Shown here: positions 1,824-64,000 of the stretch, piece by piece
How the letters are laid out: each line of letters starts with the position of its first letter
How positions within the stretch are numbered: position 1 is the first letter of the stretch
Source of the DNA: Pannonibacter carbonis
GTDB taxonomy: Bacteria; Pseudomonadota; Alphaproteobacteria; Rhizobiales; Stappiaceae
Length of the DNA stretch: 64,000 nucleotides
Direction of reading: 5' to 3'
Assembly: GCF_003012935.1 (NCBI RefSeq)
Contig: NZ_PUDR01000007.1
Span: 62,001-126,000, forward strand
Program-made: the position numbers and the translations under genes
The notes under the pieces: model-generated
Database searches by the model: none
Told to the model about the DNA's origin: nothing
Seen by the model: the letters and a program-made list of their open reading frames with translations, nothing else

Positions 1824-2975
1824 ATGATGGCGAGGAATGCGAAAACAGTAAGTTTCATTTCCGCGCATATTTTCGCACCACAGATCCGCAAGACCAGTGT
1901 TCACTTCATCGCCACCGAGTTTGCCGCGCTCGGACATGACGTAAAATTTATTTCTGTTGGTTACTCATGGCTGCGAAAGCTGAAGAACTGCCCGCGCTAC
2001 GCAGCAATATCATCTTCGCAAAGAAATCAGTTTGAGCAAATTAAGGAAAATCTGAATGCGGGGGTCTATATTGCACCACTTCACGCCTTCAGCAGCACAA
2101 ATTTTTATTTTGACAAATTGAGCTCAATACTTTTCCCTATCTATGGATCTTATTTCCCCGAATTTGCACGAGAGGCAATCAGAAGATCGGATCTGATTGT
2201 AATTGAAACAGGAACCCCGATTGCCTTTTTCGATCTCTGCAAATCGCTATCGGGATCGGCAAAATTTATTTACCTGTGCCGGGACCATATGCCGACCATT
2301 CGGGCATCGACATATCTTCAGGATCTAGAAAGACGCATTATCGCCGAAAGTGACAGCGTCTGTGTACACGCGCAACGTCTGGCGGATCTACTCCCCGCTT
2401 CCGGTCGCATCACTGTGGTGCCGCAAGCCATTGACCCCGAGCCATTCCGGTCTACCGACAAAAGCCCCTATCCGACCGGCACAGTGAATGCGGTTTCGGC
2501 TGGAGATATGCTTCTCGATCGGCAAGTCATCGCAAAGCTCGCAACTGCGGCACCAGAAGTGTGCTTTCATGTTTTCGGGGCAAGCTGGGACTTGATAAAA
2601 CCAGCCAACCTGATCATCCATGGTGAAGTGGGTTTTGAACAACTTGCAGCCTACATACGGCATGCCGATTTCGGAATCGCCGCCTATGCGACTTCAGAGA
2701 CTGATCAATACTTGGCAGAGTCGAGCCTAAAGCTTTTGCAATATGCTCATTGTCAACTTCCAGTAATATTGCCGGATTCCATACCTGTTGATCGCGGGAA
2801 TGAAGTAAAATATAATGCGAATAATCTGATTGACGCACGATCTCTTGTAGACAGGTGCCTGGAGTTCAGAAGGTCAAGTCTGGGTTCGTACAGCATCCCG
2901 AGCTGGCGCCAGAACGCTCTGGCGACACTCGCCACGGTTGGAATCAATGAGCATCCTTTTCACAGCTTAGCTTAG
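1824..2975 (+). CDS. Glycosyltransferase, GumK-like (GT70-type) candidate
   Basis: A 383-residue cytosolic glycosyltransferase with a GT-B-like layout. The N-terminus (SAHIFAPQIRKTSVHFIATE, then ALGHDVKFISVGYS) resembles the N-terminal domain of GumK-type glucuronosyltransferases, which add sugar to a lipid-linked exopolysaccharide precursor at the inner membrane. The C-terminal half carries a nucleotide-sugar-domain-like stretch (HGEVGFEQLAAYIRHADFG, then SSLKLLQYAHCQLPVI). The ATG at 1824 has GGAG just upstream. Base composition is clearly more AT-rich than flanking genes, and the gene overlaps the opposite-strand flippase tail to tail by 9 bases. The donor and acceptor sugars cannot be read from sequence. 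Confidence 0.65.
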   Translation: MMARNAKTVSFISAHIFAPQIRKTSVHFIATEFAALGHDVKFISVGYSWLRKLKNCPRYAAISSSQRNQFEQIKENLNAGVYIAPLHAFSSTNFYFDKLSSILFPIYGSYFPEFAREAIRRSDLIVIETGTPIAFFDLCKSLSGSAKFIYLCRDHMPTIRASTYLQDLERRIIAESDSVCVHAQRLADLLPASGRITVVPQAIDPEPFRSTDKSPYPTGTVNAVSAGDMLLDRQVIAKLATAAPEVCFHVFGASWDLIKPANLIIHGEVGFEQLAAYIRHADFGIAAYATSETDQYLAESSLKLLQYAHCQLPVILPDSIPVDRGNEVKYNANNLIDARSLVDRCLEFRRSSLGSYSIPSWRQNALATLATVGINEHPFHSLA

Positions 2976-4496
2976 AATCAGTGATACCAACCTTGCCATG
3001 ACCCGGCGTGGCCCGGTCAAGGCAGGTGCATTTACATCTGGAGCAGATGCCAAAGCTGAGAAATGCGACCTCGGTATTGCACAGGTCATACGCAAGAAGA
3101 TCACGTAAACGGTCGCAGCCACGCAGATAGCCACAGCAAGCACCAGGACTACGCTGGCCTGGAAGACATGCAGAATGGCCATTGCCGACAGGGCACTCAC
3201 TGTCGCGGATATCAGAACGCGAGCCAAATGCGCGATTGGAAGCCTTGCTCCCCCCAAACGCTCGAGCTGTATCTGAAACAAAAAGAAACCTGCAATCTGA
3301 AGCAGACTTTTGGCGATAACTGCCCCCCATAGCCCCCAGATAAAAATGGCAACAGGCAAGACAACAATCGTTGTGACAGCAAGAACGAGCACGCTACGTG
3401 TAATCACATTGGCATGGCCAGACGCAGACAGAGCAGACCAAGGCAGCACCGACAGCGCACTTAACGCAGAACTGACTAGCAAAATAGAGGCCATCGGCAC
3501 GAGATCGACATAGGCTGCGCTGTATACCAGCGGCAAGAGCAGCGACATGATTGCTGCCCCTCCGAAACAGATCGGAAGGCATACAACCGACAGCCCGAGA
3601 ACCGCACGTTCATAAATAAGCTGCTGCGCATGAGCGTGGTCGTTGTAGTGTTCATTCGGCAATTGACCGGATACCCGGGATGCAAACGAAACAACGAGCG
3701 GCGCACTAATTTGAAGCGAAAGCTGTTCTACAAGACCAGCAAAAGCTATTGCCACGGCAAATAAGCCGAGATCAGCGCTTGTAGCAATTAAGCTTAGAAA
3801 CAAATACTCGACACGTGACAAAACGAGTATATCAAGCAAGTCGCTGATCCAAATTTGAAGTGCATATGATTTTGCTTCACGAGAAGGGTTCAATTGCCTT
3901 TCTTGCTCTTCCCCATCGGAATGAGGGGGGATACGAAGCAGAGGCAGCATGGGAATAGACCGCAGCAGCAAAGCCGCGACAGCACCCGAAGCCCCCGCAA
4001 GCGAAGCACCTAGAATAGAGCCCGGAACATAAAGTAGAGAACCGATGATGGAGCTTCGTGCTGGCGACAGGAAATCGCCATAAGCCCGACGAGAACTGGC
4101 CGCGAAACCTGCGGTCGAGTACACTACACAAATGGCGAGAAGGATAAGCGGCTCGCTCAGCGCATTTGGCGTCGCAAACAACATTGACACAACAGCGGCA
4201 CCAGCGAAAACAACGACACTAAAGAGCAAACCGAGAGCCCATTGTCGTCGGATGCCGACGATTGTCGCACGTCTTTCCGCTGGATCAGACATCGCCCCAA
4301 AGCGCAAGGCGGTTTGGGGCCATCCCCTGTCGACGATCGCAGCCAATGCAGTCGTAAGCCAAATTGCGAAGGCGGTCGCCCCCAACCCCTCCGGCCCAAG
4401 CACACGCGCAATAATTACGGCAACAACAAAACCTGACGCCATTGAGACGAAAGACGCCAGCAGATTGAGCACAGACCGACCGAAGAGATGCGACAT
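2967..4496 (-). CDS. Polysaccharide flippase, Wzx/MATE-like (oligosaccharide export)
   Basis: A roughly 509-residue integral membrane protein rich in hydrophobic segments (about 12-14 predicted by eye). Its opening is typical of the polysaccharide biosynthesis/Wzx family: LLASFVSMASGFVVAVIIARVL followed by GPEGLGATAFAIW. Such proteins flip undecaprenyl-linked repeat units across the inner membrane. I chose the ATG at 4496 (MSHLFGRSV); an in-frame GTG at 4526 would add ten residues but lacks a ribosome site. It lies between a GumK-like transferase (convergent) and a TupA-like gene (divergent), consistent with a small surface-glycan cassette. No polymerase (Wzy) gene is seen next to it. Confidence 0.8.
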   Translation of the reverse strand: MSHLFGRSVLNLLASFVSMASGFVVAVIIARVLGPEGLGATAFAIWLTTALAAIVDRGWPQTALRFGAMSDPAERRATIVGIRRQWALGLLFSVVVFAGAAVVSMLFATPNALSEPLILLAICVVYSTAGFAASSRRAYGDFLSPARSSIIGSLLYVPGSILGASLAGASGAVAALLLRSIPMLPLLRIPPHSDGEEQERQLNPSREAKSYALQIWISDLLDILVLSRVEYLFLSLIATSADLGLFAVAIAFAGLVEQLSLQISAPLVVSFASRVSGQLPNEHYNDHAHAQQLIYERAVLGLSVVCLPICFGGAAIMSLLLPLVYSAAYVDLVPMASILLVSSALSALSVLPWSALSASGHANVITRSVLVLAVTTIVVLPVAIFIWGLWGAVIAKSLLQIAGFFLFQIQLERLGGARLPIAHLARVLISATVSALSAMAILHVFQASVVLVLAVAICVAATVYVIFLRMTCAIPRSHFSALASAPDVNAPALTGPRRVMARLVSLILS

Positions 4497-4577
4497 GCGT
4501 GTCTTATACCCTGCAGGCCGTAACACCGAATTAAAAATCTGATGTTAAGCACTCGCCAAAGCAAGCGGAGTGCGGGC

Positions 4578-5507
4578 ATGGCGCAGAAGAAAAAGGACAG
4601 TTTCCTGAGAGCCGGGGAACAGCAAAATCTGCTTATACTAAAGTTACAGAGGCTTGCATGGAGACTGATTGCACCGCTTCCGGATAGCCTCTACATCAAG
4701 ATTAAGTATTTATCAATAAAAAGAAAATGGCCAAACATCAAGAACCCGAAGAATTTTACTGAGAAAATACAATATCGCAAAATACATGATCGAAATCCGT
4801 TGTATGTAAAGCTGGCCGACAAGATTGAAGTCAAGAATTACATCAAACAACGCGTGGGGGCCGATTTCGCAATTCCGACACTATGGGCGGGGACACGGCT
4901 CGAGGACATCAATTGGAACGACATCCCTCTTCCAGCGGTTATTAAGCCCAACCATACCAGCGGACTTGGACACTTCCTGCATGGCAATTCCGATATCGAG
5001 CATCTGATGCGGTGCGATCCAGTAACTGATTGGTTGGCGATTGACCATGCTCGCTACAATCGGGAATGGGCCTATTCTGATATTCCACGTCAAGCAATGA
5101 TCGAACCGCTGTTGATGCGGGACGGCGGTGTTCCCTGGGACTACCGTTGCTTCGTCTTTCATGGAAAAGTGGTCCTGGTCAGTGTCGATGTCCGCGAAGA
5201 CAACCATGGATACTGCGCCAATTTTTCGGTAGACTGGTCGCGTCTTCCATTTCATGACCCACACTATTTCCCCCCCTATAAGGGAGATATTCCGGCTCCA
5301 ACTGCGCTTTCCACGATGGTAGAACTAGCCGAAACCGTTGCTGGCGATCTGGATTTTGTCCGGGTCGACTTCTATGACACTGGTGACCATCTCTACATTG
5401 GCGAACTGACTTTGTATCCGGGCGGCGGCTTCGAGGCGTTTGAACCGAAGGAGTTCGACCGCTGGCTTGGCAATCATTGGACAATCAGGTCAACGCCGGC
5501 CGGCTGA
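4578..5507 (+). CDS. TupA-like ATP-grasp family protein
   Basis: About 309 residues from the ATG at 4578, which has GGAG seven bases upstream; an ATG at 4542 would add 12 residues. The features NPKNFTEKIQYRKI, VKLADKIEVKNYI, AVIKPNHTSGLGH and the acidic DLDFVRVDFYD segment near the end are those of the TupA-like ATP-grasp family. TupA was named from teichuronopeptide synthesis in Bacillus; relatives occur in capsule and exopolysaccharide clusters and are thought to make ATP-dependent amide-type linkages on glycans. The exact reaction here is unknown. Codon use is AT-rich like the adjacent glycosyltransferase and flippase, suggesting the three were acquired together. Confidence 0.75.
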   Translation: MAQKKKDSFLRAGEQQNLLILKLQRLAWRLIAPLPDSLYIKIKYLSIKRKWPNIKNPKNFTEKIQYRKIHDRNPLYVKLADKIEVKNYIKQRVGADFAIPTLWAGTRLEDINWNDIPLPAVIKPNHTSGLGHFLHGNSDIEHLMRCDPVTDWLAIDHARYNREWAYSDIPRQAMIEPLLMRDGGVPWDYRCFVFHGKVVLVSVDVREDNHGYCANFSVDWSRLPFHDPHYFPPYKGDIPAPTALSTMVELAETVAGDLDFVRVDFYDTGDHLYIGELTLYPGGGFEAFEPKEFDRWLGNHWTIRSTPAG

Positions 5508-5527
5508 GCGACCGGCATCTCCCGCAT

Positions 5528-6046
5528 TCAGAACTGCACCGGCACCTGCCGGCCGTCCGAGATCCGGCATTGACCGACACCGCCGCCGCCAATGCCTGCC
5601 TCCGGGTTGGCGAGACGGAAGTCACAGGTCATCGCACGCCCCCGATTGCCGGTCAGCACAGCTTGGGCATCAGAGCGGTAGCTGATCGACGTGTCGGTGC
5701 CATCGCGAAACTGGGTCGACCAGCCATGTTTGGTCTTCTTCGAACTGTCCCAGATCGTATCGGAACTGCTGGAATTCGTCCGTTCGATGTTCTGGACAAC
5801 CCGGCCGGTAAACATTTCGCCGTCACTGGTGACTGCTGTCGCGGTGATCTGGTTGACGTCATCGAAGATGTCATTGCCTTGCTGCAGGGTCAGATGCAGC
5901 GTGCCCTGTGACATGCCGTTTGCCGCGAGGATCGGCGCAGGTGCCTGTCGGACAGTCGGGGCGCAAGCTGGCACCACACAGACCGCAGCCAGACAGATGG
6001 CAACGCGCAAGTGGCTGGCCGACAGATTGATCATTCCAAGAGTCAT
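5528..6046 (-). CDS. Hypothetical lipoprotein
   Basis: A 172-residue protein with a hydrophobic signal and a plausible lipobox (VVPAC, cysteine about residue 28), so probably membrane-anchored in the envelope. The mature part has TLHLTLQQGNDIF, a Ser-rich stretch and a glycine-rich segment near the C-terminus (EAGIGGGGVGQC). I do not recognise a family. A good ribosome site (AAGGAAC) precedes the ATG at 6046. It follows a small membrane protein gene by 15 bases on the same strand, so the two are probably co-transcribed. The 3' end faces the TupA-like gene with a 20-base gap. Confidence 0.6.
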   Translation of the reverse strand: MTLGMINLSASHLRVAICLAAVCVVPACAPTVRQAPAPILAANGMSQGTLHLTLQQGNDIFDDVNQITATAVTSDGEMFTGRVVQNIERTNSSSSDTIWDSSKKTKHGWSTQFRDGTDTSISYRSDAQAVLTGNRGRAMTCDFRLANPEAGIGGGGVGQCRISDGRQVPVQF

Positions 6047-52264: not shown

Positions 52265-52699
52265 TCAGCCGAAAATGACGCCCTTGCGGATGACGAAGTT
52301 GCCGTAGGGCCGCAGTTCGCTGGTCAGGACGATGGCATAGGCCTTCTTCGCACGCTCATAGAAGGCAAAGCGCTCCAACGTGCCCATGTCGGCCTTCTCG
52401 GCGGCAAACAGCGGCTGCGCTTCGGCCACGACAGGCGGCACGGCAGTTGGATCATCGACCACCTGCATTGTCAGGACGGGCTCGGTGCCAAAGGTATCGA
52501 CCGGCAGCAATGTCAGGATCGCCTCGACGGCGCGAACCGCCGAGCAGTCCATGCGCAACGGCCGGCCATGCACGCTTTGCCGAGCCACCGAATCGGCGGG
52601 GAAATTCGCATCGGCGACCACGATCTCGTCGCCGTGGCCCATGGCGGCCAGAACCGCCAGCAAGTCCGCACCGATCAGCGGATCGATCCCCTTCAGCAT
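52265..52699 (-). CDS. fucU: L-fucose mutarotase FucU (RbsD/FucU family)
   Basis: A 144-residue protein from the ATG at 52699 (GGGAGGAG upstream). LKGIDPLIGADLLAVLAAMG, then GHGDEIVVADANFP with the catalytic histidine and aspartate, and the C-terminal tail ELRPYGNFVIRKGVI are diagnostic for FucU. It speeds interconversion of alpha- and beta-L-fucose to supply the dehydrogenase. It is separated from the main L-fucose operon by the IclR gene and lies 89 bases downstream of the dehalogenase gene on the same strand, so it may use its own promoter. Confidence 0.92.
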   Translation of the reverse strand: MLKGIDPLIGADLLAVLAAMGHGDEIVVADANFPADSVARQSVHGRPLRMDCSAVRAVEAILTLLPVDTFGTEPVLTMQVVDDPTAVPPVVAEAQPLFAAEKADMGTLERFAFYERAKKAYAIVLTSELRPYGNFVIRKGVIFG

Positions 52700-52788: not shown

Positions 52789-55700
52789 TCACAGATCGAC
52801 CTGCATTCGCCCTCCCGGCGCAGCGGCCCGCGAGCAGCACAGGATCACCTTCGACTGGCGCTCTGCCTCCGACAGGACATAGTCACGGTGCTCGATCTGC
52901 CCGCTGCCGTCGTGCCCGACAGCACACACGCCGCAGATCCCGTCCGAACATTTGGTGCTGACGAGGATGCCGGCGGCTTCCAGAGCCTCGGTTGCACTCT
53001 GGTCCGGGCTGACCTCGATGCTGCGCCCGGACTTGAGGAGATCCAGAACGAAGGGATGGTTCTCCCAGGTCGGCGGCTCCGGCACCTTGAAGAACTCCCG
53101 CGACAGGGCCTCCTCCGGCCAGCCTTGTGCCCTTGCCGCCTCGAACACGGCCTCCATGTAGCGCTCACCGCCACAGGTGTAGAGCCTGAACCCTGGTTGC
53201 CAGTCAGGGATGAGACCGCGAAGATCGGCCCGCCCGCCTTCGCGCGAGAAATGAAACTGCGCCTGCTCCGCCCATTTGCTTGCCTCGATCTCTGCAGCAA
53301 AACCGCAGCTCTGCCGGGAGGCTGCGTTGTAATGCAGTTCGAACTTGCGGCCGAGGGCATGCAGGCGATGCGCCATGGTCAGCATCGGCGTGATCCCGAT
53401 CCCGCCTGCCATCAGCAAGGAGAAGGAGGCGGTCTCATCAAGCGGGAAGTGATTGCGTGGCGGCGAAATCAGGATCCGGCGTCCTTCGCGGAACACCCTG
53501 TGCATCAGCAGCGAGCCGCCACGCCCCTTGGCCTCGCGCTGGATGCCGAGGACGTAGCGACTGCTATCGGCGGGATCTCCAGCGAGGGAATATTGCCGCT
53601 GGTATTCGGGCGCAATCACCACATCGACATGCGCCCCTGCCGTGAACGGCGGCAACGGTCTGCCCTGCGGATCGACCAGTTCGAAGCGGACCACATCCTC
53701 CGCCAGATCATCGCGCCGGGAAATGATCACCGGGATCACCGGCGGAGGCCCGTCCAGCAGTTGCGGCCCCGGCGCAAGTCCCTCTGTCTCACCGCGTTCA
53801 AGCCTGTCGCGGTACTCGTCTGGCGACAGCAAGGCGCGGTAGCGGCGAATACCCTCCTCTCGGTCCAGCGGCTGGGTGACGGGGTAAGGCTTCGGCATCA
53901 TGTCAGCCGGGTAGACCGCAAGGGTCTGGTCTTCGGGCTTCAGATTGATGTCGGTGTTCAGCCCACGCCGGTTGGTTGCAACTGCCGCAACATAGCGCTG
54001 ACCGGACGGGTCCAGCTCGATGTCCCACCACCAGGTCTTGACCGGGTTGATCATGCCCCGCCCAAGCTTGTCATCAAGGCTTGCCAGGATCCGCGCGGCT
54101 CCCGGTGCTGCGATCGCTATCTTGCGCACGACCGCTTCGGCAAACAGGCCCTCGAGGTTCCACGGACAGGTCTTCATGCAGCGCCCGCACATTCCGCCCG
54201 CCGAATTGGTGAGGCGATAGCGCGTGCATTTCTCGGCATCCGACTTCCAGATCTCATAGCCGTTGTACATGCGCTTCGGACCGGCCGTGATCGCCCCGGA
54301 CGGACATTCGCGCGCGCATTTGTTGCAGGCCTCGCAGAACCGTTGCAGCCCGAAGTCAATCGGCTTGTCATGCTCCATCGGCATGGATGTGGTCACGGTG
54401 CCGGATTTCAGCCGCGGCCCGAGATAGGGATTGAGGATCACCTCGCCGATACGGCTGACCTCGCCGAGGCCCGACAGCAACAGCAACGGCGGCTGCAACA
54501 CCTCGCCATCAATCACGGAATGAACACGGGCGCTGTAGCCAAGTCCGCGCAGATGCTCGGCGATCACTCCTCCGAGCAACGAGAACCGCAGATAGGCCCG
54601 CATCGACTGGGCAACGGAAATCCAGTCGTCCCCGCTCGCCCCCTCCATGGTCTCGAAACCCTGGTCGATGAGCAGATTGATCGCGTGCCCATGGTAGGGC
54701 GTGATGGGCTGGCCGCCGGCATTGTGCGAGTACCAGGCCCAGTCCGGCACCCGGCACAGACCCACCGCATCAGAAGACAGGAAATATCCTGCCGCTTTCA
54801 GATTGTCGGCATTGCGCACCGGGTCGAGGGTTGAGGGATGTACCGGCGCCTTGGCATCACCAAACTGCAGCAGCAACAGCGCGCCCAGCGCACGGCGGGC
54901 ACAGGCTCCGATCGGGCTCTTGACGACATAGTGCCCGCCCTTCGCTGCTTCCTGCACCTTCTTGCCCATATCGCCGAACAGGGCGCGGGCGAAGAAATCC
55001 GCCCGCTTGGGAAACCGGGGAACTCTCGGCTCATCGATGAACGTGGTTGGCGTCTCGCGCCGGCGGATCGTCTCGAAGGGAAACGCGCCCTGGCGATATT
55101 CCCGGCGGCGATACGCATCAACCGGTCGGGACACCGGTCGTCCCTTGCCCCGTGCGGCCCACCCGCCGGGGCCGGCCGTTGCTCCAAGCATCCGGTCCGC
55201 ATCGAGCGACAACGTCGTTGTAACGACCGCCAGGGAATAACCAGTCCCGACAAAGGGTGCTTCTGCAACAGGGTGGCCGTCTGCGCCCACGCCGATCCCC
55301 GCAAGACCTGCGCTGACGGCAACGCGCGCCAGATCGACCTCGGAGGTCGTCGCCGTATGCGCGCGCGCTTCTGCCCCGAGCAAGCGCAGATAGCTGGCAA
55401 GGACAACGGCGGTGTTGGCTGCCAGAAGCGCGGCGCGCTGCGACTGAACCCCTTGCAACCAGTCACATCCCGGCTCGTCACTCCTGGGCTCCCGGGCATG
55501 GTCCACCAGAATGACGAGGGCATGGCTGTGATGCGTGACCGGTCCATGGGGGGTGCGGGCGGAATCGAGCACATCCGCATAGATCGCATCAATGCCGGCC
55601 GCGTGACTGGTCGGTTGCCCGGCCTCCAGTTCGGCACGCAGCAGGTCGATCATCGGATTTCGGAGCGGAACACCCAGAAAATGCGCGGGTTCCAGCCGGG

Positions 55701-56001
55701 CAATGCCCATCATCGCGGCATCAAAGAAATACCCGGCCGCCTTGAGATGCCGGCTACGTTCCTGCGGGTCTTCAGGGACCTCCGCCGGGGCATGGGTGAC
55801 AGGTCCGTCTCGCACGGTGTCGAACATGCCCATGAACCGCCCCATCGCACGGGCAAGGTTCACCGGATCGTCGTTATCGAACGACAACGGGCGCATCGCC
55901 GGCAGCAGGTCCAGCGGCGGGCGCTTGTCTGTGCGAGCCAGATACTCAAGCGGAAATGGTCCAAGGTGGACCGGCCGGTCCTTGGTTGAAAACAGTCGCA
56001 T
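52789..56001 (-). CDS. Reductive dehalogenase fused to an NAD(P)H reductase (BhbA-like)
   Basis: A 1070-residue cytosolic fusion from the ATG at 56001 (GAGAGGA upstream). Residues 1-690 resemble catabolic cobalamin-dependent reductive dehalogenases, ending in two 4Fe-4S motifs: C556, C559, C562, C566-P and C592, C605, C608, C612-P. No twin-arginine signal is present. The rest is a phthalate-dioxygenase-reductase-like module: FMN segment RQYSLAGD (about 840), NAD segment GGIGITPMLTM and a C-terminal plant-type 2Fe-2S with C1018, C1023, C1026 and C1055. This order matches BhbA of Comamonas, which dehalogenates brominated hydroxybenzoates. The likely substrate is a halogenated phenolic acid. A MarR gene precedes it. 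Confidence 0.88.
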   Translation of the reverse strand: MRLFSTKDRPVHLGPFPLEYLARTDKRPPLDLLPAMRPLSFDNDDPVNLARAMGRFMGMFDTVRDGPVTHAPAEVPEDPQERSRHLKAAGYFFDAAMMGIARLEPAHFLGVPLRNPMIDLLRAELEAGQPTSHAAGIDAIYADVLDSARTPHGPVTHHSHALVILVDHAREPRSDEPGCDWLQGVQSQRAALLAANTAVVLASYLRLLGAEARAHTATTSEVDLARVAVSAGLAGIGVGADGHPVAEAPFVGTGYSLAVVTTTLSLDADRMLGATAGPGGWAARGKGRPVSRPVDAYRRREYRQGAFPFETIRRRETPTTFIDEPRVPRFPKRADFFARALFGDMGKKVQEAAKGGHYVVKSPIGACARRALGALLLLQFGDAKAPVHPSTLDPVRNADNLKAAGYFLSSDAVGLCRVPDWAWYSHNAGGQPITPYHGHAINLLIDQGFETMEGASGDDWISVAQSMRAYLRFSLLGGVIAEHLRGLGYSARVHSVIDGEVLQPPLLLLSGLGEVSRIGEVILNPYLGPRLKSGTVTTSMPMEHDKPIDFGLQRFCEACNKCARECPSGAITAGPKRMYNGYEIWKSDAEKCTRYRLTNSAGGMCGRCMKTCPWNLEGLFAEAVVRKIAIAAPGAARILASLDDKLGRGMINPVKTWWWDIELDPSGQRYVAAVATNRRGLNTDINLKPEDQTLAVYPADMMPKPYPVTQPLDREEGIRRYRALLSPDEYRDRLERGETEGLAPGPQLLDGPPPVIPVIISRRDDLAEDVVRFELVDPQGRPLPPFTAGAHVDVVIAPEYQRQYSLAGDPADSSRYVLGIQREAKGRGGSLLMHRVFREGRRILISPPRNHFPLDETASFSLLMAGGIGITPMLTMAHRLHALGRKFELHYNAASRQSCGFAAEIEASKWAEQAQFHFSREGGRADLRGLIPDWQPGFRLYTCGGERYMEAVFEAARAQGWPEEALSREFFKVPEPPTWENHPFVLDLLKSGRSIEVSPDQSATEALEAAGILVSTKCSDGICGVCAVGHDGSGQIEHRDYVLSEAERQSKVILCCSRAAAPGGRMQVDL

Positions 56002-56072
56002 GTACCGCGTCCTCTCCCGCCGGGCGGATGTTGCCTCCGCTTCGGCCTGTTCAACGACCGGCACATGTCCGG

Positions 56073-56522
56073 TCAGAAGTCTGACAGGTCTTCCCGTTCA
56101 CCGGCCGCCAGCAGATCCAGTGCCTCCATCAGCACGGAAAACTGTTCAGGGGCCAGCTTGCCGGTAAAATGTTCGTTCATGGCGTTGACCGGACCACGGG
56201 TGGTGCGGACGATCCGCATGCCCTCACCGGTCAGTTCGATCTCCACGGCACGCCCGTCCGGTCCGCTTCCGGGCTGGCGTTGCAAGTAGCCCTTCTTTTC
56301 CAGCACCCGCAGCAGCCGCGACATCGTCGGCCGCGTCACGCCGACATAGTCGGCAAGATCCGACGGTGTGCGGACATCCTCCTCCCCCACACCGATCATC
56401 ACGCACCACATCAGGCGCGTCAGACCATGCTCGGCAAGAATCTCCTCAAGCCGCCCCTGCAGGATCCGCGACAGGCGCGACACCCGGTATCCAAGGCGCT
56501 GATGCAGTTTGTACTGGCTCAT
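56073..56522 (-). CDS. MarR-family regulator, probable control of the dehalogenase and TRAP genes
   Basis: A 149-residue MarR winged-helix protein: LGYRVSRLSRILQGRLEE at the start, LADYVGVTRPTMSRLLRVLEKKGYLQ as the recognition region and QPGSGPDGRAVEIELTGEG as the wing. MarR proteins commonly respond to phenolic compounds. It lies 71 bases upstream of the dehalogenase gene on the same strand and is divergent from the TRAP genes; a 14-bp inverted repeat sits between them. A phenolic or halophenolic effector is a reasonable inference. Confidence 0.87.
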   Translation of the reverse strand: MSQYKLHQRLGYRVSRLSRILQGRLEEILAEHGLTRLMWCVMIGVGEEDVRTPSDLADYVGVTRPTMSRLLRVLEKKGYLQRQPGSGPDGRAVEIELTGEGMRIVRTTRGPVNAMNEHFTGKLAPEQFSVLMEALDLLAAGEREDLSDF

Positions 56523-56560
56523 TCCGGACCCCGTTCGTGCGAACAGACTTGACTAACTGA

Positions 56561-56594
56561 TTATCAGTGTCAATCATCTAATTGTCAGTGATAA
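56561..56594. promoter_or_regulatory. Candidate MarR operator between divergent marR and TRAP genes
   Basis: TTATCAGTGTCAAT (56561-56574) and its near-inverse at 56581-56594 form a 14-nt inverted repeat with two mismatches and a 6-base spacer. A separate short palindrome, ACTGAT-T-ATCAGT, overlaps at 56556-56568. The AT-rich setting and position between divergent genes fit MarR autoregulation. Confidence 0.55.
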
Positions 56595-56672
56595 CTAACG
56601 AGCTTGCCAACCAAGGCCAGCCGTCAGCGCCGGAGGCCCCATTGCGGTGCATCCGGATCCGGAGAGGAACGC

Positions 56673-57674
56673 ATGGTCAAGACGATTCTCGCAACGCTTG
56701 CCGTAGGGCTTGCACTCGTTTCCGCCGCTCCCGCCCTAGAGGCCAAGGAGCTCAAGCTGGCGCATTTCATGTCGCCGCAACACCCGATGGACCGTCATGT
56801 GATGACACCGCTGGCCGAAACGGTCGGCGCTGCCAGCGGTGGGGCCCTCACGATCAAGGTCTATCCAGCCGGGGAACTGGGGGCCGGGCCGAACCAGCAA
56901 TACCGGCGGGCCGTCACCGGCATCGCGGACATTGCCTTCAACCTGCCGCAGTACACGCCGACCCAGTTCAAGCGCTCGGCGCTGCTGCACGTGCCCGGCC
57001 TCTTCACCTCGCCCGAGCAGGCCACCCGCACGATCTGGGACAATATGGAAGCCCTGGCACCGGACTTCACGGAAGTGAAGCTTCTGGCCTACTGGACCAA
57101 CAACCCCTCGCTGCTGTTCACCCGCAACAAACCGGTCCGCTCCCTCGCGGACATGCAGGGCCTCAAGGTCCGCGTGCCGGATCCGGTTTCGGCCAAGATT
57201 GTCGAGGCCTGGGGCGGCATACCGGTCTCAATGCCTGCAACCGAAGCCTACAACGCCATGAGCACCGGCGTTGTCGACGCCGTGATGATCGATGCGTCCG
57301 CCGTCTCGTCCTACAATCTGCAGGAAGTGACGAAATACGCGACCATGAACATCCCCGGCGCGCTCTCCACCTTCACCCTGATCATGAACCAGGCCGCCTA
57401 TGACGGTCTCGACGACACGCAGAAAGGCATCATCGAGGCTGAGACCGGGTTGCCGCTCTCGCTGAAGGCAGCCGAGGCGTTTCGCATGGCCGGAGACAAG
57501 GGCGTGGCGATGCTGAAAGACGCAAAGGTCGAACTGATCGAGCTGGATCCGGCAACCGTCACAGCCTTCCAGTCGGCCATGCAGGCTCCGGTCGAGGCGT
57601 TCCTGCAGGCGGAAGGCACAGCGGGCGGGTTCGATGCCCTTGCCTTCGTTGCCGGGTTCAAGACCGCAAACTGA
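56673..57674 (+). CDS. TRAP transporter solute-binding protein, DctP family
   Basis: About 333 residues from the ATG at 56673 (GGAGAGG upstream) with a signal peptide ending at ALEAK. It shows DctP features: LKLAHFMSPQHPMDRHVM, VYPAGELGAGPNQQYRRAVTG-type region, and GLKVRVPDPVSAKIVEAWGG with the arginine that binds the carboxylate of the substrate. BhbB, the partner of BhbA in Comamonas, is also a TRAP receptor, so an aromatic halo-acid is the likely ligand. The small and large membrane subunits follow directly. Confidence 0.88.
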   Translation: MVKTILATLAVGLALVSAAPALEAKELKLAHFMSPQHPMDRHVMTPLAETVGAASGGALTIKVYPAGELGAGPNQQYRRAVTGIADIAFNLPQYTPTQFKRSALLHVPGLFTSPEQATRTIWDNMEALAPDFTEVKLLAYWTNNPSLLFTRNKPVRSLADMQGLKVRVPDPVSAKIVEAWGGIPVSMPATEAYNAMSTGVVDAVMIDASAVSSYNLQEVTKYATMNIPGALSTFTLIMNQAAYDGLDDTQKGIIEAETGLPLSLKAAEAFRMAGDKGVAMLKDAKVELIELDPATVTAFQSAMQAPVEAFLQAEGTAGGFDALAFVAGFKTAN

Positions 57675-57694
57675 GCGGAAAAGGGCGATCAACC

Positions 57695-58258
57695 ATGTCC
57701 CGTCTTCCTCGGGAAGATAGCACCGGCGGAACCAATGTTCCGCCGGATGCCCCTTCCACGCCTGAACCCGGTCACACTGCAAGCCAGACCCCTGCGGCAT
57801 TGGCCTGGCCCCTGCTGGTCCTTGAAGTCGTCGGCAGCCTGTGTCTTGCAGCGCTTCTGACCCTGACCGTCAGCGATGCGCTGTTGCGGTCTCTTGCCAA
57901 CCGGCCCGTGTTTGGGGCCAGCGACCTGATCCAGGTCCTGCTTTGCCTTGTTGTCGCGGCCTCCCTGCCCTTATGTGTTGCTGCCGGACGCGCCATAGCC
58001 ATCGACATGCTCGTCGAACGTCTGCCCGCCCGGCTGCGTAAGCCTCTGGCCCGCCTGATGGCAGCAACCTCGGCAGGGCTCCTGCTGCTGGCCGCCTGGC
58101 GCTGCTTCGTCAATGCCGGCGAGGCGGCGCAGTTCGGAGAGAGCACGATGCTGCTGCGCATCGGCTACGGCCCGTTCTATCTCGCCCTTGCCATCTCCTT
58201 CGTCTTCTGCGCGCTGCTGTTTGCCGCAGAAGCCCTGCGCAGAAAGGAAACGGCATGA
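57695..58258 (+). CDS. TRAP transporter small membrane subunit, DctQ family
   Basis: A 187-residue membrane protein with four hydrophobic segments (starting near WPLLVLEVVGSLCLAALLTL) after a roughly 30-residue Thr/Pro-rich cytosolic lead. RSLANRPVFGASDLIQVLLC and the AGRAIAIDMLVERLP segment are DctQ-like. Its stop overlaps the DctM start by 4 bases (ATGA). With DctM it forms the Na-dependent carboxylate channel. Confidence 0.87.
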   Translation: MSRLPREDSTGGTNVPPDAPSTPEPGHTASQTPAALAWPLLVLEVVGSLCLAALLTLTVSDALLRSLANRPVFGASDLIQVLLCLVVAASLPLCVAAGRAIAIDMLVERLPARLRKPLARLMAATSAGLLLLAAWRCFVNAGEAAQFGESTMLLRIGYGPFYLALAISFVFCALLFAAEALRRKETA

Positions 58259-59562
58259 GCGCGGCCGTCATCGGTCTTGCCGGCTTCGCCGGTCTTTTCG
58301 TCCTCATGGGGCTCGGCATTCCCGTTGGCCTCGCCATGCTTTTGACCGGGCTTGCCGGAACCATCGCCATCACCGGCTGGACCTCGGCGGCCTACACCCT
58401 CTCCGGGCAGGCCTTTGCCACCGCCTCCCACTATGACCTGTCGGTGCTGCCACTGTTCGTGCTGATGGGCAATCTCGCCTCGGCCTCCGGGCTCAGCCGT
58501 GATCTCTATGATGCCGCCTATCGCTGGATCGGTCATGTGCGCGGCGGTCTTGCCGGCGCCACCGTGCTCGGCTGTGCCGGCTTTGCCGCCTTGTCGGGAT
58601 CTTCAATTGCCTCGGCTGTCACCATGGGCCGGGTCGCCTATCCCAATATGCGGCGGTATGGCTATGGCGGACGCCTGGCCGCAGGCACGGTTGCAGCAGG
58701 CGGCACGCTCGGCATCCTGATCCCGCCGTCCACCGGCTTCGTGCTCTATGCAATCCTCACCGAACAGTCGATTGGACGCCTGTTCATGGCCGGTGTTCTG
58801 CCCGGCCTGCTGCTGACGGGCCTGTTCCTGGTGGCAGTGGCCATCGTCGTGCGGCTGAAACCCGAGGAAGGTCCGCGCGGACCCTCCTTTTCATTGGCAG
58901 AGAAAGGACAGGCAACACTCCGGGCAACCGGAATATTCACGATCATCGGCCTCACCATTGGCGGGATCTACTCCGGCCTCTTCACTCCGGTGGAAGCCTC
59001 GGGTGTGGGGGCGGCCTTCGCACTCCTGATGCTGGCGATCCGCCGTAAGTTCGGCCTCAAGACCTTGCGGTCGGTGTTCCTGGACACCTTGCAGACGACC
59101 GGAATGAGCTTCCTGATCCTGATCGGGGCCAGCGTGTTCGCCCCCTTTGTGGCGCTATCCGGTCTTCCCGCCATGGTCGCTGACGCCTTTGCCGGTGCCG
59201 GTCTGGGTCCTATTGGCACCCTTGCGGTGATCCTGATCGCCTATGCCATCCTCGGCATGTTCATCGAGGGGCTGTCGTTGATGGTGATCACGCTGCCTAT
59301 CGTCTTCCCGCTGATAACGGCCCTCGGCTTCGATCCGATCTGGTTCGGCGTCATCATGGTCATTGTGCTGGAGATGGGCCTGATCAGCCCGCCGGTCGGG
59401 GTCAATTGCTTCGTCGTCGCCACGATAGCGCGAGACATCAAGTTGGAGACCGTCTTTGCTGGTATCCTGCCGTTCTGGCTGGCGATGATCCTGGCCATGG
59501 CAATCCTGGTGGTCTGGCCGGACATTGCCCTCATTTTGCCCAATGCGATGTATGCGAAATAG
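58255..59562 (+). CDS. TRAP transporter large membrane subunit, DctM family
   Basis: A 435-residue membrane protein with about 12 hydrophobic segments. GLGIPVGLAMLLTGLAGT, the LFVLMGNLASASGLSRDLYD segment, AALSGSSIASAVTMGRVAYP, GTLGILIPPSTGFVLYAILT and GLISPPVGVNCFVVATIAR are characteristic DctM motifs. The start is fixed by the ATGA overlap. It completes the TRAP system divergent from marR-dehalogenase. A GC-rich inverted repeat (59571-59577 with 59591-59597) follows, without a T-run. Confidence 0.9.
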   Translation: MSAAVIGLAGFAGLFVLMGLGIPVGLAMLLTGLAGTIAITGWTSAAYTLSGQAFATASHYDLSVLPLFVLMGNLASASGLSRDLYDAAYRWIGHVRGGLAGATVLGCAGFAALSGSSIASAVTMGRVAYPNMRRYGYGGRLAAGTVAAGGTLGILIPPSTGFVLYAILTEQSIGRLFMAGVLPGLLLTGLFLVAVAIVVRLKPEEGPRGPSFSLAEKGQATLRATGIFTIIGLTIGGIYSGLFTPVEASGVGAAFALLMLAIRRKFGLKTLRSVFLDTLQTTGMSFLILIGASVFAPFVALSGLPAMVADAFAGAGLGPIGTLAVILIAYAILGMFIEGLSLMVITLPIVFPLITALGFDPIWFGVIMVIVLEMGLISPPVGVNCFVVATIARDIKLETVFAGILPFWLAMILAMAILVVWPDIALILPNAMYAK

Positions 59563-61577: not shown

Positions 61578-62735
61578 ATGACCGTGGTGCCTGTCACATC
61601 CGCCGATCTGGATGCCTGTGAAGTGTCCTGGTTCGCTGCGCTGTGTTCTGACGATTATGAGTATCTCGGCGTACCGGACGGCCGCCTGCGGTCAAGCTTC
61701 GAGCATTGCTCGTCCATCGTGCAAAAGGCGGAAGGCCACGGCTTCCGCAACATCCTGTGCCCGTCGTCCTACCAGGTCGGGCAGGATACGCTGAGCTTCG
61801 TCGCCGGCTGCGCCCCGATCACCGACCGGATCAACTTCCTGGCCGCGATCCGCTGCGGCGAGATGCAGCCGATCATGCTGGCGCGGACCGTCGCGACCCT
61901 CGACCACATGCTGAAAGGCCGCCTGACGCTCAACGTCATCAGCTCGGACTTCCCTGGCGAAGTGGCCGACAGCGCCTACCGCTACAAGCGCAGCCACGAG
62001 GTGGTGGAGATCCTGCGGCAGGCCTGGACGCGCGACACCATCGATCACGATGGCGAGGTCTACCAGTTCAAGGGCGTGACAACGGAACCCGCCCGCCCCT
62101 ATCAGCAGAACGGCGGCCCGCTGCTCTACTTCGGCGGCTATTCCCCCGATGCGCTGGAACTGTGTGGATCCCAGTGCGACGTCTATCTGATGTGGCCGGA
62201 GACCAGGGACCAGCTCGCCGCCCGGATGAAGGCTGTGCATGAACGTGCCGCCGCTCATGGCCGCACCCTCGACTACGGTCTGCGCGTGCACATGATCGTC
62301 CGCGACACGGAAGCCGAAGCGCGCGAGTATGCCGAGCATCTCGTCTCCAAGCTGGATGATGAATACGGCAAGCTGATCCGTGACCGCGCCCACGATTCCA
62401 TCTCGCTCGGCGTTGCCCACCAGGCCCGCGCCCGCGAGCTGGCCGACCAGTTCGGCTACATCGAACCGAACCTGTGGACCGGAATTGGCCGGGCCCGGTC
62501 CGGCTGCGGTGCGGCCCTCGTCGGGTCAACCGACCAGATCCTGACCCAGATCGAGGAATACCGGAAGATGGGCATCCGTGCCTTCATCTTCTCCGGCTAC
62601 CCGCATCTCGACGAGGCCGACCACTTCGGGACCAAGGTCCTGCCCCACCTGAAAACCTGCTCGCTGCCGCATGCCTATGGCCGCGTGCCGAACGAGACCC
62701 CGGCGACACCGCTGGGTGCCGGAGACCGCCGCTGA
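61578..62735 (+). CDS. smoC: FMNH2-dependent SsuD-like monooxygenase (sulfoquinovose monooxygenase candidate)
   Basis: A 385-residue luciferase-like flavin monooxygenase of the alkanesulfonate group. EVSWFAALCSDDYEYLG at the start, FLAAIRCGEMQPIMLARTVAT-type region, LNVISSDFPGE and RYKRSHEVVEILRQAW fit SsuD-type enzymes; LYFGGYSPDALELCG is also typical. In the SMO pathway, SmoC oxidises sulfoquinovose to sulfite and 6-oxo-glucose with FMNH2 from a flavin reductase. The downstream aldo-keto reductase and flavin reductase match that three-enzyme set. GGGGGA precedes the ATG at 61578. Confidence 0.8.
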   Translation: MTVVPVTSADLDACEVSWFAALCSDDYEYLGVPDGRLRSSFEHCSSIVQKAEGHGFRNILCPSSYQVGQDTLSFVAGCAPITDRINFLAAIRCGEMQPIMLARTVATLDHMLKGRLTLNVISSDFPGEVADSAYRYKRSHEVVEILRQAWTRDTIDHDGEVYQFKGVTTEPARPYQQNGGPLLYFGGYSPDALELCGSQCDVYLMWPETRDQLAARMKAVHERAAAHGRTLDYGLRVHMIVRDTEAEAREYAEHLVSKLDDEYGKLIRDRAHDSISLGVAHQARARELADQFGYIEPNLWTGIGRARSGCGAALVGSTDQILTQIEEYRKMGIRAFIFSGYPHLDEADHFGTKVLPHLKTCSLPHAYGRVPNETPATPLGAGDRR

Positions 62736-63628
62736 TGGACCGCATTTCGCTTAGCCCCGATCTCAGCTTCAGCCGAATTGTCTACGGCATGTGGCGGATC
62801 GGCGATGACGCCGACACATCCCCGGCCCATGTCCAGGCCAAGGTCGAGGCCTGTCTCGCCCAGGGCATCACCACCATGGACCAGGCCGACATCTATGGCG
62901 GCTACACGGCAGAAGCCATTCTGGGCGCGGCCCTGAAGGCCGCCCCGTCAATGCGTGACCGAATTGAGCTGGTGACGAAATGCGACATCGTCGCACCGGT
63001 CGGCCGCTATTCCACCGCGCGCGTCAAGCACTACGATACAAGCGCCGCGCATATCACGACGTCCGTCGAAACGTCTCTTCGTGAAATGGCGACGGACCGG
63101 ATTGACCTGCTGCTGATCCATCGCCCGGATCCGCTGATGGACGCGCAGGAAACCGGCAAGGCCCTCGACGCGCTCGTCGCGTCCGGCAAGGTGCGCAGTG
63201 TTGGCGTGTCGAATTTCCGGCCCTGGGATTTCTCGCTGCTGCAGTCGGCGATGAGCACTCGGCTCGTCACCAACCAGATCGAGATCAGCCTGACAGAGCC
63301 CGCCCCCTTCACCAACGGTGATCTTGCCTATCTGCAGGAGCGTAAGCTTCCGGTGATGGCGTGGTCGCCACTGGGTGGCGGCAGCCTGTTCTCCGGTGCC
63401 AACGCGCCGCTGCTGGCAGCCCTGGAGCGCATCGCAGCCGACTATGAGGTCGACGTCACGGCGGTCGCGGTCGCCTGGCTGTTGCGACATCCGGCTGAGA
63501 TCATCCCGGTCATGGGCACCAATCGCCTCGACCGGATCGCCCGCTTCCATGAAGCGATGAAGGTCGTGATGGACCGGCAGACCTGGTTTGAACTCTACAC
63601 CCTGGCGATCGGAAAAGAGGTGCCGTGA
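62735..63628 (+). CDS. smoB: Aldo-keto reductase (6-oxo-glucose reductase candidate, SmoB-like)
   Basis: A 297-residue TIM-barrel AKR from the ATG at 62735 (TGATG overlap). The catalytic tetrad is visible: Asp and Tyr in MDQADIYGGY, Lys in ELVTKCDI and His in LLLIHRPDP. SVGVSNFRPWD and QIEISLTEP are standard, and MGTNRLDRIARFHEA near the end binds the cofactor phosphate region. SmoB reduces the 6-aldehyde made by SmoC to glucose. The substrate call depends on the neighbouring genes. Confidence 0.8.
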   Translation: MDRISLSPDLSFSRIVYGMWRIGDDADTSPAHVQAKVEACLAQGITTMDQADIYGGYTAEAILGAALKAAPSMRDRIELVTKCDIVAPVGRYSTARVKHYDTSAAHITTSVETSLREMATDRIDLLLIHRPDPLMDAQETGKALDALVASGKVRSVGVSNFRPWDFSLLQSAMSTRLVTNQIEISLTEPAPFTNGDLAYLQERKLPVMAWSPLGGGSLFSGANAPLLAALERIAADYEVDVTAVAVAWLLRHPAEIIPVMGTNRLDRIARFHEAMKVVMDRQTWFELYTLAIGKEVP

Positions 63629-64000
63629 TGATGGCTGCAAATGACAGACACGCCCATGGCGAGACCGTTTTCAGCCCGGATGCCGGCAATGCCCGGGCCT
63701 TCCGCATGGCGCTTGGCAGCTTCACCACCGGCGTGACCGTGGTCACCGCCATGGGCGCGGACGGTCCGATGGGCATGACGGTGAACAGCTTTACCTCCGT
63801 GTCCCTCGACCCGCCACTGGTGCTTTGGTCACCGGCCAAAAGCTCATCGAAGCACGATGCCTTCGCCGCCATCGACCACTACGCCATTCATGTCCTGAGC
63901 GCGGATCAGGATGGCCTCAGCGCCTGCTTCACCCGCGGCGGCACCGCCTTTGACGGGCTGGACTGGCAGCTGAACCCGGACGGGACCCCGGTCATTCCAG
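63628..64000 (+). CDS. smoA: Flavin reductase (SmoA-like), 3' end cut by window
   Basis: The frame starts at an ATG overlapping the AKR stop (ATGA; a second ATG follows) and is open to the window end, giving about 124 residues. FRMALGSFTTGVTVVTAMG, GMTVNSFTSVSLDPPLVLWS and HVLSADQDGLSACFTRGG are diagnostic of the flavin reductase-like family that supplies reduced FMN to two-component monooxygenases. Its partner is most likely the SsuD-like enzyme two genes upstream. The rest of the gene, and any transporter or sulfoquinovosidase, would lie beyond base 64000. Confidence 0.87.
   Translation, partial: MMAANDRHAHGETVFSPDAGNARAFRMALGSFTTGVTVVTAMGADGPMGMTVNSFTSVSLDPPLVLWSPAKSSSKHDAFAAIDHYAIHVLSADQDGLSACFTRGGTAFDGLDWQLNPDGTPVIP

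Follow-up and report, generated by a model that had tools for sequence, protein, structure and literature searches.

The rdhA locus and its fusion protein

The DNA stretch analysed here, hereafter called the window, comprises 64,000 nucleotides of Pannonibacter carbonis (positions 62001-126000 on a contig of 265,883 bases, in a genome of 4.78 Mb). Between positions 52789 and 59562 it carries rdhA, which encodes a reductive dehalogenase fused to a reductase, together with a gene for a MarR-type regulator and three genes for a tripartite ATP-independent periplasmic (TRAP) transporter. All five genes, including the one for the 1070-residue RdhA, lie where an earlier note on this DNA had placed them. 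The products MarR, DctP, DctQ and DctM score above their Pfam cutoffs, dctPQM form a complete TRAP set diverging from marR, and the RdhA protein has a single match across its own genome. The features of the locus are the following.

52789..56001, minus strand: rdhA, self-sufficient catabolic reductive dehalogenase with a phthalate-dioxygenase-type reductase, 1070 aa (homology, profiles)
52792..53727, minus strand: phthalate-dioxygenase-reductase-like module, about residues 759-1070, with the 2Fe-2S cysteines C1018, C1023, C1026 and C1055
54166..54336, minus strand: cysteines of two 4Fe-4S clusters, C556, C559, C562, C566 and C592, C605, C608, C612 (Pfam, alignment)
54214..54216, minus strand: R596, equivalent to NpRdhA R552 (alignment)
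54406..54408, minus strand: K532, equivalent to NpRdhA K488 (alignment)
54592..54594, minus strand: Y470, equivalent to the proton donor Y426 of NpRdhA (alignment)
55534..55683, minus strand: fusion insert, about 42 residues longer than in NpRdhA, about residues 107-156 (alignment)
56073..56522, minus strand: marR, 149 aa, 71 nt upstream of rdhA and on the same strand (Pfam)
56558..56576, minus strand: putative MarR operator 1, with a perfect pattern match at 56558-56573 (matrix, pattern)
56579..56597, plus strand: putative MarR operator 2, with one mismatch at 56582-56597 (matrix, pattern)
56673..57674, plus strand: dctP, TRAP solute-binding protein, 333 aa (Pfam PF03480)
57695..58258, plus strand: dctQ, TRAP small permease (Pfam PF04290)
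58255..59562, plus strand: dctM, TRAP large permease (Pfam PF06808)

The rdhA open reading frame starts with a GTG at 56064. We took the ATG at 56001 as the start, because homology to NpRdhA of Nitratireductor pacificus begins at query residue 22, the Met of that ATG, and GGGAGAGG lies 9 nt upstream of it. The product exceeds the cutoff of the NCBIfam reductive dehalogenase (RDH) model TIGR02486 (181.6 vs 160.35 bits) and the Pfam cutoffs of Fer4_7 and Fer4_16 (4Fe-4S: PF12838/PF13484) and Fer2. A sequence search of the PDB matched the RdhA part to NpRdhA (4.2e-164), in an alignment spanning both halves and including the vestigial N-terminal duplicate domain, and the C-terminus to phthalate dioxygenase reductase (2pia, 2.1e-58); the predicted model (mean predicted local distance difference test score, pLDDT, 71.2; predicted template modelling score, pTM, 0.68) matched the same two folds. 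An alignment of 23 sequences shows no variation at the eight cysteines assigned to two 4Fe-4S clusters or at the four assigned to the 2Fe-2S cluster. The self-sufficient fusion with two 4Fe-4S motifs described in the earlier note is thus borne out. The insert stretch has 57 residues, against about 15 in NpRdhA, and is present in all five fusion sequences compared; an insert specific to RdhA fusions is described for JtRdhA of Jhaorihella thermophila (PMC10463259). No twin-arginine translocation (Tat) motif (RRxFxK) was seen at the RdhA N-terminus (MRLFSTKDRP...), and no membrane-anchor family was matched among the nine neighbouring proteins scanned. Judged by these two features, the protein does not appear to be a respiratory reductive dehalogenase; the RDH homology, 4Fe-4S sets, catalytic residues, reductase module and absence of a Tat signal point to the BhbA/JtRdhA type.

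The catalytic Tyr, Lys and Arg of NpRdhA, which the earlier note had named for checking, are kept throughout: S422 (S466 in the window protein), M423, Y426, K488 and R552 are identical in 66/66 RdhA sequences, window included. S422, Y426, K488 and R552 are tied to substrate binding and proton transfer in published work (PMC7565698, PMC10463259). NpRdhA itself (PDB 4RAS, 6ZXU, 6ZXX, 6ZY0, 6ZY1) is about 39% identical over the RdhA part and shares F290 and F291 as well, but it has neither the reductase module nor the 42-residue insert, and the pocket for a second halogen differs, with A419 and N452 both replaced by Val, F310 by Tyr and P311 by Val in the window enzyme. A419 is described as belonging to the second-bromine pocket of NpRdhA, the A419M substitution raising the relative activity on a mono-bromo substrate above that on the dibromo one. 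BhbA and a relative in Nitratireductor sp. OM-1 have Ser and Ala at positions 419 and 452. The pocket being different, the window enzyme need not share the best substrate of BhbA. Opposite NpRdhA K307 the window protein has an Ala, but the alignment there adjoins a gap of two residues and a Lys lies just one position away, and we draw no claim from it. The identity of the halogen cannot be read from the sequence.

Of the same architecture is JtRdhA, which according to its published description shares with the window protein the vestigial duplicate domain, two 4Fe-4S clusters, a fused FMN/2Fe-2S reductase, the fusion-specific insert, the catalytic Tyr, Lys and Arg and the absence of a Tat signal (PMC10463259); the likeness is one of description and not of sequence identity or tree position. 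JtRdhA is reported to debrominate and deiodinate phenolics with NADPH, in air or without it, and to be competitively inhibited by chlorinated phenolics (PMC10463259). By homology, the window enzyme should perform similar chemistry. A word search of the main text of that paper found no mention of TRAP or of a MarR regulator.

For BhbA, encoded on plasmid pBHB of Comamonas sp. 7D-2, the likeness drawn in the earlier note holds for domain order and catalytic residues, but identity is about 51%, BhbA sits outside the clade of the window RdhA, and the pocket positions differ. The note had also placed a TRAP receptor in the BhbA system. The annotation of the receptor beside bhbA instead reads tripartite tricarboxylate transporter receptor, and by Pfam the protein is TctC (1.1e-65); homologues of the window marR and TRAP genes were not found in the 21 kb around bhbA. 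Protocatechuate 4,5-dioxygenase genes lie near bhbA, whereas the window has TRAP and MarR, and the pobA/pca genes of its host are on another contig. The analogy thus fails in detail, although a solute receptor adjoining rdhA is a theme that BhbA and the window share. A Roseobacter marine debrominase is likewise described as a catabolic reductive dehalogenase (PMC13101508); with its motifs at positions 283-345 the protein is probably shorter, and we set it beside the window enzyme by description.

Linkage of rdhA with TRAP and marR genes and a shared palindrome

Linkage was examined in 68 loci, comprising the window and 34 and 33 relatives; the residue count given above leaves out the partial L026 and the broken L033. 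Fusion relatives came from a scan of genome contigs (26, one partial) and from 8 plasmid records covering at least 80% of the query, those of BhbA and L033 included. A marR homologue accompanies rdhA in 26/68 loci, and TRAP, marR and rdhA occur together in 18/68; both counts are lower bounds, because a number of contigs stop close to rdhA, and they cover homologues of the window genes, any unrelated MarR or TRAP being left uncounted. The window-type TRAP was never found without marR, which is present in all 18 TRAP loci, so the partnership with rdhA read from the window in the earlier note is a recurrent one. On a quick RdhA tree, the fewest changes are five each for the marR and TRAP traits.

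In the window's family, DctP homologues of at least 47% identity occur in 14/87 genomes (own included), and all 14 carry rdhA with the dctP gene adjoining it. This close DctP subfamily is therefore tied to RdhA in the family; the next seven DctP homologues (41-44%) do not lie beside rdhA. Distances over 17 loci correlate at r = 0.99 for RdhA-DctP and 0.945 for RdhA-MarR, values for which shared ancestry alone would also suffice. Against the PDB, DctP matched 104 sequences, the best being 5im2 (7e-38). A literature search on PDB 4P56 found nothing, and a predicted DctP structure was discarded for its mean pLDDT of 35.

Comparison of the marR upstream regions of eleven loci revealed an imperfect 19-bp palindrome, TAATTGACAATGTTAATTA, in ten of them, window included, and not in the eleventh, L033. 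A weight matrix was built from nine sites of the ten loci (two loci share one site), and when each source locus was left out in turn the best site still fell upstream of marR in 10/10. Among 16 further marR loci (15 unseen and L033; 14 from one genus, with the shorter marR start taken for L083 and L085), 15 had the best site of the locus upstream of marR, at a distance of no more than 250 nt. Dinucleotide shuffles reached the best site in 0/300 cases for each of these 15 and in 30/300 for L033, which fails; the site of L030 is weak, at 14.3 bits. In the marR-less loci (13 of 42 scanned), the 300 nt before rdhA scored at most 12.7 bits. In the window the two best matrix sites are 56558-56576 and 56579-56597, both in the marR-dctP gap. 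With one mismatch allowed, the pattern TTGACANTGNTAAYYA has three matches in the 4.78-Mb genome, two of them in this gap, and its backward control has one. The L033 locus also carries a strong operator-like site (20.9 bits, L033:12277) downstream of rdhA, between two divergent genes and not at marR.

A MarR-type regulator, BhbR2 of Pigmentiphaga kullae, is known for 3-bromo-4-hydroxybenzoate genes (PMC12016517). By its description, and not by sequence, it resembles the window MarR in family, in its palindromic site and in serving a bromo-hydroxybenzoate pathway, but it is an activator, and its TTGATT-N5-AATCAA site, of other spacing, lies at phbh2/pca genes (PMC12016517).

The earlier note took such fusions to be rare. 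A full-length fusion is present in 34/87 genomes of the window's family (by genus 1/5, 0/3, 2/3, 0/1, 12/16, 19/45 and 0/14); self-sufficient RdhA fusions are not rare, and the kind is already characterised in BhbA and JtRdhA. The window rdhA was probably gained laterally, because its product shares 68-72% identity with the enzymes of Phyllobacteriaceae, Rhizobiaceae and Pseudorhodobacter but 54-59% with those found within its family. On a plasmid of Yoonia sp. SS1-5 (L033:7938-11205), a broken copy of rdhA, divided between two open frames, accompanies marR and TRAP genes. At L102:10521-12568 and L104:6830-8883, from a different genus of the window's family, rdhA follows a second, separate reductase of the same type (33-34%) and a different DctP (27-29%).

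A third site, a deiodinase homologue and the rest of the window

The third genome match to the pattern lies on contig 12, where 48 nt separate its end from the start codon (ATG) of a deiodinase-like gene (L076:4020-4779). Its product belongs to the nitroreductase family by Pfam and matches PDB entries 5ko7 (4.8e-68; named a nitroreductase, and which we take to be a bacterial iodotyrosine deiodinase) and 4ttb, iodotyrosine dehalogenase 1 (1.5e-48). Iodotyrosine deiodinases are flavin reductive dehalogenases. Homologues at E 1e-40 or better occur in 29/87 genomes of the family and in 3/5 of the window's genus, where each has the identical upstream site TTCACAGTGATAATCA.

Among these five genomes of the genus, the same syntenic position is seen in three states: with the full cassette, with a lone marR, and empty. 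Congeners G009 and G010 are without full rdhA and the window TRAP and keep a close marR (59-64%) and the deiodinase gene with its site. Their lone marR (L153:8898-9356, L154:9048-9506) stands between fucU and a Gfo/Idh oxidoreductase gene, which is the site of the cassette in the window. G007 and G008 have neither a close marR (best 28%) nor a deiodinase at E 1e-40, and at the syntenic site (L157, L158) have some 410-420 nt in which none of the window genes queried found a match. A lone marR occurs in just those congeners that retain the deiodinase gene and its operator-like site, although five genomes are few. In the MarR tree the lone regulators join the window MarR (99/93) inside the RdhA-linked set; they are 76% identical to each other, against 59-63% to the window MarR, and some window flanking genes are nearer to those of G009.

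On this comparative evidence, one MarR may govern both the cobalamin RdhA, with its TRAP, and the flavin iodotyrosine-deiodinase homologue, in a regulon for halo-hydroxyaromatic acids and halotyrosines; we offer this tentatively, as a lead that is rather doubtful at present. Several results speak against it. No operator was found in the upstream regions of the lone marR genes, and the third site scores a modest 17.2, a value matched (17.3) at an unrelated position within 16 kb of sequence. In 13 rdhA genomes of other genera (7 with marR), the best site within 400 nt upstream of the deiodinase gene reaches 6.9 bits, so that general membership of the deiodinase in an RdhA regulon is unsupported outside the window's genus and was rejected. 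For deiodinase genes of 13 genomes without rdhA, also outside the genus, the best upstream site scores 15.2 bits. G007 has one other one-mismatch match to the pattern.

The fucU gene (52265-52699) shares the strand of rdhA and lies downstream of it. We considered it as a module part and set it aside: no FucU homologue turned up in the 34 relative loci scanned, and all four congeners retain fucU with its fucose-type neighbours while lacking a full-length rdhA. Scanning the window for Rfam families and tRNA genes gave nothing. Elsewhere, positions 2001-6000 have a low GC content (0.50-0.54 vs about 0.64) and encode a GumK-like glycosyltransferase, a polysaccharide flippase and a TupA-like ATP-grasp protein, perhaps an acquired surface-polysaccharide segment. 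At 61578-64000, genes for a luciferase-family protein resembling alkanesulfonate monooxygenase, an aldo/keto reductase and a flavin reductase lie in a row and likely form a two-component flavin monooxygenase set; the first two occur in all four congeners, and the flavin reductase gene in the two examined.

Proposed role and its alternatives

We propose, with a probability of about two in three, that the locus is an inducible module for the uptake and dehalogenation of halogenated hydroxyaromatic acids. The proposal builds on the genes, the conserved residues, the recurrent linkage, the operator-like sites and the pobA/pca genes of the host, all of them observed; the substrate, the halogen and the direction of regulation are inferred, and the reaction itself is modelled on JtRdhA and NpRdhA. 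The TRAP transporter would import a halogenated hydroxyaromatic carboxylate of the halo-4-hydroxybenzoate type, in line with the uptake of halo-aromatic acids suggested in the earlier note, which is plausible. This acid or a relative of it would free MarR from the palindromes in the marR-dctP gap and so turn on both dctPQM and marR-rdhA, and RdhA would strip an ortho bromine or iodine from it. Electrons would pass from NAD(P)H through FMN, 2Fe-2S and the two 4Fe-4S clusters to cob(II)alamin, which would bind the substrate halogen, with Tyr470 donating a proton and Lys532 and Arg596 holding the phenolate. The product, if 4-hydroxybenzoate, would enter the PobA and protocatechuate 3,4-cleavage route.

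In the host genome PobA is above its cutoff (TIGR02360, 657 vs 538.7 bits), and near pobA the pcaG, H, C, D and F genes are above NCBIfam cutoffs, with pcaB above one of three. Dehalogenated 4-hydroxybenzoate could be used via pobA/pca, evidence that is permissive only. HpaB, which would be the next step for a hydroxyphenylacetate product, was not found in the genome. The cobN gene is present, as in 20/21 genomes searched (own included), and so does not discriminate.

Several observations weigh against the proposed module. The window-type TRAP is missing at 50/68 loci and marR at 42/68 (upper bounds, as some contigs end), and therefore neither is needed by the RdhA enzyme. The 13 other TRAP loci of the family all come from one genus and are not independent. 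The L033 locus has marR and TRAP without an operator at marR. No operator match lies near the pobA/pca genes, and the pcaI/J-like genes are below model cutoffs. The predicted RdhA model is of low confidence in the cluster and pocket segments, and with a pocket unlike those of NpRdhA and BhbA, 3,5-dihalo-4-hydroxybenzoate may not be a substrate.

A further point of this kind leads to the strongest of the alternatives, that RdhA is an ortho-halophenol dehalogenase acting on neutral halophenols that diffuse into the cell, with TRAP carrying either the product of dehalogenation or some ordinary hydroxyaromatic acid. Besides acids, JtRdhA is reported to accept 2-iodophenol, 2,4,6-triiodophenol and tetrabromobisphenol (PMC10463259), simple halophenols that would need no transporter, and the TRAP is absent from most loci, as noted. 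The nearest receptors outside the RdhA set (41-44%; seven loci, neighbours partly scanned) bear on both readings: three adjoin a gene of the phenol 2-monooxygenase subfamily and not a dehalogenase gene, which counts for our proposal as well as for this alternative, and MarR was confirmed at the two of these three that were scanned for it. One more adjoins genes for a thiamine pyrophosphate enzyme and an aldehyde dehydrogenase, and three have no clear aromatic link; at four of the seven, then, the scanned neighbours offer no phenolic connection, which tells against our proposal. However, the close DctP subfamily occurs in the family only beside rdhA (14/14) and shares the operator region of marR, and we consider the halophenol account unlikely.

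Lower still we place a detoxification role, in which MarR senses halophenol stress, RdhA protects the cell and TRAP serves another purpose. MarR proteins often sense phenolics, and the same regulator may reach the iodotyrosine-deiodinase homologue; yet high-affinity uptake would be unhelpful to detoxification, and pobA/pca are present, so that this role is improbable. Very improbable is another cobalamin/Fe-S redox role for the RdhA-like part, similar to that of the sister family of epoxyqueuosine reductases, for although a QueG match is detectable it is weak (24.7 vs a cutoff of 200 bits), whereas the RDH model is above cutoff, the Ser, Tyr, Lys and Arg are kept in all 66 sequences and a characterised fusion of the same architecture is reported to debrominate (PMC10463259).

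Under the proposed uptake-and-dehalogenation module, the enzyme type is known, and what looks new is the conserved set of TRAP, MarR with its operator and rdhA, together with a possible second dehalogenase target. Searches of the open-access PMC literature turned up no statement of a TRAP-RdhA link, and another paper may report one. In the literature we met, little is known of the natural substrates and regulation of aerobic self-sufficient reductive dehalogenases, and a dedicated transporter receptor and a defined putative operator offer two cheap and direct ways to approach the natural substrate, through the ligands that DctP binds and those that release MarR. Should the link to the deiodinase hold, B12 and flavin dehalogenation would stand under one sensor, which would bear on the recycling of natural organobromine and organoiodine compounds.

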